DNA from: Bacteriovorax sp. BAL6_X | GTDB lineage: Bacteria > Bdellovibrionota > Bacteriovoracia > Bacteriovoracales > Bacteriovoracaceae | Assembly (NCBI RefSeq): GCF_000443995.1 | Contig: NZ_AUMC01000003.1 | Location: forward strand, 186,001-250,000 | Length of the DNA: 64,000 bases | Reading direction: 5' to 3' | Part shown: piece by piece, positions 13,612 through 23,242 of the stretch | How the letters are laid out: every line of letters begins with the position of its first letter | Numbering within the stretch: the stretch's first letter is position 1 | Program-made: the position numbers and the translations under genes | The notes under the pieces: model-generated | What the model was told of the DNA's origin: nothing | Seen by the model: the letters and a program-made list of their open reading frames with translations, nothing else | Database searches by the model: none

Positions 13612-14907
13612 ATGAGTTTTACAGATTACAAAGTAGCAGACATCTCTCTAGCTGACTGGGGAAGAAAAGAAATTAAAATCGCTGAAACTGAAATGCCGGG
13701 ACTAATGTCTCTAAGAAAAGAGTTTGGAGCGTCAAAGCCACTTAAAGGTGCAAAGATTGCAGGTTGTCTTCACATGACTATTCAAACAGCTGTGCTTATC
13801 GAAACTCTAGTTGAGCTAGGTGCTGAAGTAAGATGGTCTTCATGTAATATTTATTCAACTCAAGATCAAGCTGCTGCGGCAATCGCTGCTGCTGGAATTC
13901 CTGTTTTTGCTTGGAAAGGTATGAACGAAGAGGAATTTGACTGGTGTATCGAGCAAACTCTTAAATGGGCAGATGGATCAGCACTTAATATGATCCTTGA
14001 TGATGGTGGTGACCTTACAAATATGGTTCACGACAAATATCCTGAGCTAATCGAAGGAATCAAAGGTCTTTCTGAAGAAACAACTACTGGTGTTCACAGA
14101 CTATATGAAAGAGTTAAAGCAGGAACACTTAAAATGCCAGCAATCAATATCAATGACTCTGTTACAAAGTCTAAGTTTGATAACCTTTATGGATGTAGAG
14201 AATCTTTAGTAGATGGTATTAAGCGTGCAACTGACGTAATGATCGCAGGTAAGACTTGTGTTGTTGTTGGTTACGGTGATGTTGGTAAAGGTTCAGCTCA
14301 GTCTTTCAAAGGTCTTGGAGCTAGAGTAATCGTTACTGAAATCGATCCAATCTGTGCTCTTCAAGCAGCTATGGAAGGTTTCGAAGTAATGAAAATGGAT
14401 AAAGCAGCTGCTGAAGGTGATATTTTCGTTACAACGACTGGTAACTACCACGTAATCAATGCATCTCACCTTGATAAGATGAGAGATGGTGCAATTGTTT
14501 GTAACATTGGTCACTTTGATAATGAAATCGACATCAAGCACCTACATAACAACTACGAAGAAGATAATATCAAGCCACAAGTTGATCTTTATACAGGAAA
14601 AGATGGTAAGAGAATCATTCTTCTTGCTCAAGGTCGTCTAGTTAACCTTGGTTGTGCAACTGGGCACCCTTCATTTGTTATGTCGAACTCATTTTGTAAC
14701 CAAGTTATTGCTCAAATGGAACTTTGGGACAATGCTGGAAAATATGAGAACAATGTTTATATGCTACCTAAGCACCTAGATGAAAAAGTTGCTCGTCTTC
14801 ACCTTAAGAGAATTAATGTTGAAATCGATGAACTTTCTCCTCAGCAAGCTGAATACATCAGTGTACCTGTTGAAGGTCCATATAAGCCAGAACACTACCG
14901 TTACTAA
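13612..14907 (+). CDS. ahcY: Adenosylhomocysteinase
   Basis: 431 residues. It hydrolyses S-adenosylhomocysteine to adenosine and homocysteine, clearing the product of SAM-dependent methylation. The NAD-binding fingerprint [20 protein letters not shown] is present, with [20 protein letters not shown] near the N-terminus and the family's C-terminal tail ending in PEHYRY. It lacks the roughly 40-residue insertion of some bacterial forms. The start has a GAGGAAA ribosome-binding site. A structured RNA-like element begins 4 nt after the stop, then a terminator. Homocysteine made here could feed the CBS/cystathionine lyase genes at 35-38 kb. Confidence 0.97.
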
Positions 14908-14911
14908 GCAG

Positions 14912-15010
14912 CTGCGAAATTGACTGGCTACGGCCAGTCTATTGTTCGCGGTGCTAGCTCCCCATGAAAGGAGTAGGCTCCAATCGAGAGCGAGGGTTCA
15001 AGCCCGAGCG
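14912..15010 (+). ncRNA. Unknown structured 3'-UTR RNA element, copy A
   Basis: CTGCGAA (14912-14918) pairs with TTCGCGG (14945-14951), enclosing ATT, a GACTGGC/GCCAGTC hairpin with a TACG loop (14922-14939), and TATTG. One base later comes GCTAGCTCCCCA (14953-14964), then 29 variable bases and the hairpin core GGGTTCAAGCCCG (14994-15006). A second copy at 23011 keeps the two blocks and all outer pairs while changing their bases, which argues for selection on RNA structure. I do not recognise a named family. It may be a processed 3'-UTR RNA or an RNA of its own ending at the terminator 15045-15076. Confidence 0.6.
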
Positions 15011-15044
15011 GTTCGCTTAAGGAGCAAAAAGAATGTATAATATG

Positions 15045-15076
15045 AAAAGAGCCTCGTTTATGAGGCTCTTTTTTTT
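15045..15076 (+). terminator. Rho-independent terminator after ahcY and element A
   Basis: AAAAGAGCCTC (15045-15055) pairs with GAGGCTCTTTT (15062-15072) around a 6-base loop and runs into T8. It separates ahcY plus the RNA element from rpiB, whose ATG is only 10 bp further on. Confidence 0.9.
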
Positions 15077-20971: not shown

Positions 20972-23005
20972 ATGTCTAATCCATTATTAGAAAAATTTAC
21001 AAATCCACATGGTGCAAGGCCATTTGATACAATCAAAAATGAGCACTATATGCCGGCCATTAAAGAGGCCATCAAAATGCACAAAGAAGAAATCGAAGCG
21101 ATTAAAAACTTTGATGGTGAACTTACATTTGCAAATATCATTGAGCCATATGCAAATTCAGGAAGTGCAATTGAAGATATTTCAATGATCTTTTTTAACC
21201 TAAAGTCAGCAAACACAAATGATGAGATGAATGAAATCGCAAAAGAATTCTCACCATTATTAACTGCTCATGGTAACGACGTTAACCTTGATGCTGATCT
21301 TTTTGCTAAGGTTAAAGTTGTTTTTGATAACAAAGAAAATGAAGACTTAAACGCTGAGCAGATGACTCTTCTTACAAAGATCTATAAAGGATTCGTAAGA
21401 AATGGTGCTCTTTTAAGTGAAGAAGATAAGAATAAAGTAAGAAAGATTGATGAAGAGCTTTCTAAGCTAGGTCTAGAGTTTTCGGATAATCTTTTAAAAG
21501 AAACGAATAAATTCGAAATGATTTTAGATAATAAAGAAGATTTAGCAGGTCTTCCTGAAGGACTTATTGAAGCTGCTGCAATGACAGCAACTGAAAAGGG
21601 TCATGAAGGTAAGTGGGTATTTACTCTTGATTACCCAAGCTTTGGTCCATTTATTACATACGCGCAAAATCGTGAATTACGTAAGAAGATGACAATCGCT
21701 TCTGGGACTAAGTGTGCTAAAGGAGATGAACTTGATAATCAAGAAAACGTAAAAAGAATTGCTCAGCTTCGTTTTGAAAGAGCTGGAATTCTTGGATACA
21801 AGAGTCACGCTGATTATATCTTAGAAGAACGTATGGCCATGAGTGCTCAAAACGTTTTTGATCTTTTAAATAACTTAAAAGAAAAAGCAATGCCGGCAGC
21901 TGTTGAGCATATGGATGAAGTTAAAGCCTATGCAAAAGAACAAGATGGTGTGGAAGACTTCTCTTCATGGGACTATATGTACTACTATGAGAAGTTAAAG
22001 AAAGAAAGATATAGCATTGATGATGAAATGCTAAAGCCATACTTCAAGTTAGAGAATGTTCTTAATGGTGTTTTTGAAGTTGCAACTAAGCTTTATGGAC
22101 TAAACTTTAAAGAAGTATCTAATATTCCAAAGTATCACCAAGATGTTATGACTTATGAAATTACTGATCGTGATGGAAATTTCATTTCATTATTCTACGG
22201 AGATTACTTCCCACGTTCGTCTAAGCGTGGTGGAGCATGGATGACTGCATTTAGAGAACAATATGTACTTAATGGTGAAGATGTTCGTCCACATATTGCA
22301 AACGTTTGTAACTTTACAAAGCCAACAACGACGAAACCATCACTTCTAACTTTCAATGAAGTAACAACTCTATTCCATGAGTTTGGTCACGCTCTTCACG
22401 GTATTCTAACTAAGTGTCAGTACCGTATGCTTTCAGGTCCAAATGTATACTGGGATTTCGTTGAGCTACCTTCACAAATTTTAGAAAACTGGTGTTTTGA
22501 AAAAGAATGTTTAGACCTATTTGCTAAGCACTATGAAACTGGAGAGTTAATTCCTGCTGAATTAGTACAAAAATTAAAAGACAGTTCTAACTTTGGAGAA
22601 GGTCGTCACACGATTCGCCAATTAAGCCTTGGCCTACTTGATATGGCATGGCACTCAGGTGATCCATCAAATATTACAAATGTTGAAGAATTTGAAAATC
22701 TTGCAACTCAAGATGTTCAACTTCTTCCAAAAGTTCCAGGAACAATGGTTTCTACTTCATTTGGTCACATCTTTGCGGGTGGATACTCAGCTGGTTACTA
22801 TTCGTACAAGTGGGCCGAAGTTCTAGATGCAGATGCATTTGAATTATTCTTAGAAGAGGGGATCTTCAATACAACAATTGCAGATCGCTTTAGAGAGAAT
22901 ATCCTTGAAAAAGGTGGTTCAGAGCACCCAATGGATCTTTATAAGAGATTCCGTGGCCGAGAGCCAGAGGTTGATGCTCTACTTAGACGTGGTGGTCTTA
23001 TTTAA
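20972..23005 (+). CDS. M3-family oligopeptidase (Dcp/OpdA-like)
   Basis: 677 residues, full length for peptidyl-dipeptidase Dcp or oligopeptidase A. The zinc site HEFGH (469-473) in TTLFHEFGHALHG and the downstream FVELPSQILENW with the third ligand are intact. FGHIFAGGYSAGYYSYKWAE near the C-terminus is a family hallmark. It degrades short peptides in the cytoplasm or periplasm; no signal peptide is seen, so cytoplasmic. Dcp and OpdA cannot be separated with confidence here. It lies 31 bp after the transporter gene with a TAGGAG ribosome-binding site. RNA element copy B begins 5 nt after its stop. Confidence 0.92.
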   Translation: MSNPLLEKFTNPHGARPFDTIKNEHYMPAIKEAIKMHKEEIEAIKNFDGELTFANIIEPYANSGSAIEDISMIFFNLKSANTNDEMNEIAKEFSPLLTAHGNDVNLDADLFAKVKVVFDNKENEDLNAEQMTLLTKIYKGFVRNGALLSEEDKNKVRKIDEELSKLGLEFSDNLLKETNKFEMILDNKEDLAGLPEGLIEAAAMTATEKGHEGKWVFTLDYPSFGPFITYAQNRELRKKMTIASGTKCAKGDELDNQENVKRIAQLRFERAGILGYKSHADYILEERMAMSAQNVFDLLNNLKEKAMPAAVEHMDEVKAYAKEQDGVEDFSSWDYMYYYEKLKKERYSIDDEMLKPYFKLENVLNGVFEVATKLYGLNFKEVSNIPKYHQDVMTYEITDRDGNFISLFYGDYFPRSSKRGGAWMTAFREQYVLNGEDVRPHIANVCNFTKPTTTKPSLLTFNEVTTLFHEFGHALHGILTKCQYRMLSGPNVYWDFVELPSQILENWCFEKECLDLFAKHYETGELIPAELVQKLKDSSNFGEGRHTIRQLSLGLLDMAWHSGDPSNITNVEEFENLATQDVQLLPKVPGTMVSTSFGHIFAGGYSAGYYSYKWAEVLDADAFELFLEEGIFNTTIADRFRENILEKGGSEHPMDLYKRFRGREPEVDALLRRGGLI

Positions 23006-23010
23006 GCGTT

Positions 23011-23115
23011 CCGCAAAATTGGCCGCCCAAAGGCGGGCTATTGTTTGCGGCGCTAGCTCCCCAGTCTTTAGCTAATAAATTATTTCAACAAGCCGGGTTC
23101 AAGCCCGGCTTTTAT
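23011..23115 (+). ncRNA. Unknown structured 3'-UTR RNA element, copy B, with terminator
   Basis: CCGCAAA (23011-23017) pairs perfectly with TTTGCGG (23044-23050), enclosing ATT, a CCGCC/GGCGG hairpin with a CAAA loop (23023-23036), and TATTG. One base later is GCTAGCTCCCCA (23052-23063), identical to copy A. After 31 bases comes AAGCCGGG-TTCAAG-CCCGGCTT (23090-23111) followed by TTT, which should act as a terminator for the M3 peptidase message. The 13-mer GGGTTCAAGCCCG (23095-23107) is also identical in copy A. Positions 2 and 5 of the outer stem differ between copies but still pair. Confidence 0.6.
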
Positions 23116-23242
23116 ATTCAGGATGAATGGTATGTCCACGAAGGCAGGATCCGAGAGTGGACTGTTGTTTCTGGAGCCAAGGATGGGAAAGTTATCGCAA
23201 AAGAAAAGCGACACTTTAGCTTTGCTAAAGTTAGCAAAGGAA

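Follow-up and report, generated by a model that had tools for sequence, protein, structure and literature searches.

The conserved hairpin found directly 3' of ahcY in the window (the 64,000-nucleotide stretch of the Bacteriovorax sp. BAL6_X genome analyzed here) is a member of a family of dispersed structured repeats, 115-175 nt long, that begin exactly at the in-frame stop codons of their host genes. The preliminary description of this feature is confirmed as a real observation, and the family is larger than was noted there. Repeats near gene ends are common in bacteria; here, every locus found lies exactly at an in-frame stop. In our view, these sequences are probably REP-like mobile elements of the 3' UTR that are transcribed and act in cis at the stop. 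As far as our search of the literature shows, no structured repeat family had been described for Halobacteriovorax before this one.

Both members in the window lie on the forward strand. Copy A (14905-15025) runs from the stop codon of the S-adenosylhomocysteinase gene ahcY (13612-14907, forward strand; TAA at 14905-14907, at the foot of P1) to the end of the P2 helix, and copy B (23003-23177) from the TAA stop (23003-23005) of a gene for a prlC-like oligopeptidase of the M3 type (20972-23005, forward strand; named from its sequence only) to the GGAGC that ends P2. The general architecture comprises a P1 hairpin, a long-range P2 helix and a P4 hairpin, with a small P3 in some copies. P1 of copy A (14907-14955, forward strand) shows all the parts described earlier: the outer stem 14912-14918/14945-14951, the ATT/TATTG internal loop, and the inner stem GACTGGC/GCCAGTC (14922-14928/14933-14939) with the loop TACG. 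The start had been placed 4 nt past the stop; the outer stem, however, has four further pairs (14907-14910/14952-14955) that reach the last base of the stop codon, and the start of the element is therefore the stop codon itself. The blocks GCTAGCTCCCCA (14953-14964) and, 29 bases later, GGGTTCAAGCCCG (14994-15006) were found as reported, and they recur from 23011 on in the second copy, which actually starts with the TAA stop codon at 23003. Within the former block, a 12-mer, GCTCC (14957-14961, forward strand) forms the 5' arm of P2; the 3' arm, GGAGC, lies at 15021-15025 (forward strand), while the P4 hairpin of variant A, CGAGAGCGAGGGTTCAAGCCCGAGCGGTTCG, occupies 14985-15015 (forward strand). 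The span of copy B includes an extra module (23112-23165, forward strand) with TTCAGGATGAA and GTCCAC...GTGGAC hairpins, and similar modules are present in the copies 3' of the relA/spoT-type and metG genes. The strong terminator reported near the end of copy A does exist (15046-15076, forward strand), but this intrinsic terminator is distinct from the element, which ends at 15025. The computed folds of copies A and B have energies of -54.3 and -62.2 kcal/mol; their MFE z-scores (-4.7 and -3.1, respectively), together with the covariation seen across over 20 additional copies, argue that the element is not a product of chance.

Loci were gathered with three covariance models, R1, R2 (P1 only) and R3. 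A short-pattern search had returned six true copies in the BAL6_X genome (G000), BLAST with copy A revealed more, among them a three-unit tandem array (C10:754890-755251), and the covariance models yielded a second array (C9:300312-300903). This genome contains 16 intact loci with approximately 22 copies, two tandem arrays and one groEL remnant. Six more loci are present in three other Halobacteriovorax species, so that the covariance-model search of relatives proposed in the preliminary description did recover further copies with covarying stems; the P1 core also matches two contigs of Halobacteriovorax sp. ARS37. Model R1 hit 4 of 144 genomes and model R2 hit 4 of 38, and every matching genome falls within Halobacteriovorax. 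The element was not found in the phages, viral contigs and plasmids that were searched as carriers. A scan against Rfam, at gathering and permissive thresholds, gave weak chance matches only and no family, in agreement with the initial failure to recognize one. A larger, autonomous version bearing an ORF was considered and rejected, as the P1-only model recovered the same loci and none new. The frequency of the pattern TAGCTCCC was not clearly above that of its reversed control.

The selection on RNA-like structure suspected from the comparison of two copies is borne out by the whole family. An alignment of 27 copies (26 distinct rows) that represent four species has 94.0% of its cells paired, as compared to 70.3% in shuffles; two-sided changes occur at 29 of the 33 pairs, the covariation score is 0.519 versus 0.172, and pairing falls to 34-42% if the partners are slid by 1-3 columns. 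These values are somewhat inflated because the alignment (A6) was fitted to the model. A ten-copy alignment shows 97.7% of cells paired and two-sided changes at 17 of 33 pairs, and in a structure-free MAFFT alignment (A4) 97.5% of the P1 cells are paired, with two-sided changes at 11 of 18 pairs. As regards the two compensatory changes originally noted between copies A and B, the one at stem position 5 (G-C to A-T) is indeed two-sided, but the one at position 2 (T-G to C-G) is one-sided only. In most copies the internal loop of P1 is 3x5. P4 occurs as one or the other of two isosteric variants, and the right end of the element is poorly defined. G-U pairs outnumber A-C mismatches 20 to 5 (counts from related copies, with one loop-closing pair left out); this excess favors the sense strand and suggests that it is the strand that folds.

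The 12-mer GCTAGCTCCCCA had been called invariant, but its GCTCC pairs with the GGAGC located about 60 nt downstream, and this P2 helix is replaced by GGCC/GGCC or GGCCC/GGGCC in other copies. The C-rich block is thus swapped together with a compensating partner and is therefore conserved as a helix. This result bears on the earlier suggestion of a 3'-UTR-derived small RNA, which can be extended to a family of stand-alone RNAs released from 3' UTRs and acting in trans through GCUAGCUCCCCA. The strong conservation of the C-rich block, the invariable location in 3' UTRs and the terminator that follows some copies are in keeping with such a role, but the supposed seed is an arm of a covarying helix, no promoter-like site was found just upstream, and exact anchoring at a stop codon would be unnecessary. 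We regard a trans-acting RNA as improbable and describe the element instead as a repeat that is scattered over the genome but tied to stop codons. The compact fold, with its multiple helices and internal loops, and the precise insertion could in principle also fit a small ribozyme or an RNA resembling an intron, with insertion or cleavage beside the stop codon. We find this reading very improbable, given the lack of an Rfam match, the mainly helical location of the conserved positions and an internal loop that differs among subfamilies.

At 21 of 21 loci checked, the element is in sense orientation and its first bases are the in-frame stop, TAA or TAG, of a long ORF; a groEL copy found in genome G005 during the ortholog survey raises the number of stop-anchored loci to 22 of 22, counting first copies. 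In these first copies the stop codon lies at or within the foot of P1; the second and later units of tandem arrays are located away from stop codons. Seven complete copies have TAG as the stop, and in each of these the opposite strand of P1 reads CTA. In copies with TAA it reads TTA, or GCTA that pairs via a bulge (the exception is the atpD copy, with TTTGCTT), and some of the terminal pairs at the stop in these copies are weak or bulged. The sequence 5' of the stop is gene-specific and shows no conservation, and the base preceding TAG can be A, G or C. The hosts, more than 20 genes, are mostly housekeeping: ahcY, ychF, rpsA, atpD, an etfA-type gene, lpdA, a NifU-like gene, nqrF and a peroxiredoxin gene were recognized by family search or from the translated sequence, and guaA, metG, tex, the relA/spoT-type gene, a nuoI-type ferredoxin gene, groEL, fusA and the M3 peptidase gene from the sequence alone. 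Three further hosts are atypical or have no clear identity; the product of one of them (L006 397-1458) is a repeat protein, rich in lysine and similar to histone H1, with no NCBIfam match. Where the canonical C-terminus is known (...HYRY in AhcY, ...PPGTIEWE in GuaA, and ...GGMPGMM in GroEL), the ORF ends in it, so that the host proteins are unchanged by the element. A structure that adjoins the stop codon, like the bacterial SECIS or readthrough hairpins found immediately 3' of it, might be taken for a recoding or readthrough signal. Here, however, the stops are UAA and UAG, never UGA, and the in-frame extensions range from 2 to 44 codons, are unrelated across subfamilies and preserve no readthrough frame, and we deem a recoding function extremely improbable.

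To trace the history of individual copies, orthologs of the host genes were located in five sister species and the 3' flanks were read at 68 stops, a few of them at short or ambiguous ORF ends. The element is present at only one of these orthologous stops, that of groEL in G005, where it begins at the stop (R3 E = 0.002); fusA of G004 is a weak candidate (E = 0.33). At the remaining stops there is mostly a short spacer followed by a terminator, and the atpD orthologs are separated from atpC by a gap of 10-15 nt. With almost all orthologous stops empty, the sequences indicate that the element has been gained repeatedly between the stop codon and the terminator. In a tree built from 16 gene ends and ahcY, G001 pairs with G004 and G002 with G005 (a tree of ahcY alone is unresolved). 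Since G004, the sister of G001, lacks the element 3' of ahcY, as do G002, G005 and G003, two gains are the simplest explanation for the copies at ahcY in G000 and G001.

How the element would move is a separate issue. The tandem arrays, the swapped variants of P1, P2 and P4 and the insertion of a hairpin module with AGGA show that it recombines, and the BAL6_X genome possesses four genes of the RAYT-type Y1_Tnp family. The patchy dispersal, the arrays and the modularity of the copies would also fit a selfish DNA element of the MITE or REPIN kind, the folded single strand of which is moved in trans by an HUH/Y1 (RAYT-type) or another transposase, its placement at stops being tolerated or chosen at the DNA level, with no function in cis; REPs with the GTAG tag often give flanking ORFs their TAG stop (PMC3733652). 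None of the 14 Y1_Tnp loci inspected across eight genomes is flanked by the element, the inverted repeats at RAYT loci are different from it, and no transposase could be tied to it; RAYT was therefore rejected as a mobility partner. Target-site duplication around the insertions is not above that of permuted pairs (permutation p = 0.52), and apparent duplications, e.g. ATAAG at atpD, vanish under the same test. Moreover, the occurrence of all 22 loci at in-frame stops is hard to explain from the DNA sequence alone, and the structure has been kept despite divergence. We consider selfish DNA with no role in cis somewhat unlikely, and prefer the cis-acting 3'-UTR element. The RAYT-type genes themselves, in BAL6_X and relatives (L101, L106, L111, L018 and L039), have inverted repeats such as GGTGCCATGCACCTTTGGTTTCGCA at their borders, and repeats of this type also occur singly elsewhere, e.g. 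5' of lpdA and 3' of the NifU-like gene.

Among known systems, the element most resembles REP/BIME/REPIN sequences, which are also dispersed palindromes near gene 3' ends that are transcribed (as the element presumably is), and some of which provide a stop codon (PMC3733652). Orthodox RAYT-associated REPs, however, are palindromes of 20-40 bp with a GTAG or CGTC tag at one end (PMC3733652), usually present in more than 100 copies per genome, whereas our element is 115-175 nt long with several helices, one of them long-range, has neither tag nor RAYT linkage, occurs at 16 intact loci in about 22 copies, is restricted to one genus, and lies at every locus exactly at the stop codon. Its hairpin lies, as in REPs, near ORF 3' ends (22 of 22 loci), from where it may affect translation. 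RAYT transposons with long terminal inverted repeats (PMC3733652) inhabit the same genome, and GGTGCCATGCACC-type repeats are found nearby, but they differ from the element in sequence and structure, and it is absent from the flanks of the RAYT genes examined. The element is similar to enterobacterial MITEs of the ERIC/RU type in size (~127 bp for the latter), in likely transcription and in frequent location near 3' ends. ERIC is a single long imperfect palindrome that targets TA; the element, by contrast, has several helices and no detected target duplication, and its two ends are by inspection not the terminal inverted repeats of ERIC-like, IS630-type MITEs. We would class it as a new family, REP-like but neither REP (by tag, size, copy number or RAYT linkage) nor MITE (by inverted repeats or duplication).

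We propose that a structured non-coding repeat spreads within Halobacteriovorax by inserting exactly at the stop codon, ahead of the host gene's own terminator. Once transcribed, the stop codon would form the foot of a stable P1 hairpin, followed by a domain closed by P2 and containing P3 and P4, and the element would most likely act in cis, at message ends or on ribosomes completing translation. It might slow termination and lower expression, which is the effect in E. coli of REP hairpins no more than 15 nt from the stop, or block 3'-to-5' exonucleases and so preserve the mRNA. A passage of PMC12306157 that cites Liang et al. 2015 states that E. coli REPs less than 16 nt from the stop lower translation, and REPs are reported to stabilize upstream mRNA (Newbury et al. 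1987). The element described here is an extreme case of such a location. By analogy with this REP precedent, we favor a putative cis role, either in termination or in protecting the 3' end. That insertion itself is targeted to in-frame stops, e.g. via an RNA intermediate or via mRNA on which translation is in progress or terminating, with the stop codon taken into the element's own hairpin foot, we hold to be unlikely; if true, this would be a class of elements addressed to translation termination sites. The presence of every locus at an in-frame stop and the empty sites in sister species make two questions testable, namely how a small element locates stop codons, and how a hairpin rooted in the stop codon affects termination, ribosome recycling and mRNA decay.

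Several individual copies deserve mention. The groEL remnant of BAL6_X (C10:67060-67120, L043) retains the right half of the element after the stop codon and is missing P1, and groEL genes in G003 and G005 carry full or diverged copies. Approximately 53 nt of P1 and linker are identical between the rpsA copy of BAL6_X (L005 1459-1511) and the peroxiredoxin copy of G005 (L053), i.e. across species and unrelated genes, which suggests a possible recent activity of this subfamily, or transfer. In L018, L036 and L006, extra P1-like hairpins beyond the right end of some copies suggest decayed tandem units. Finally, the hairpin module of the GGC-AGGA-GCC type is inserted in several copies (23134-23162 in the window; L017, L044 and L057), at two different positions within the element, and as the reverse complement in a copy from G005.
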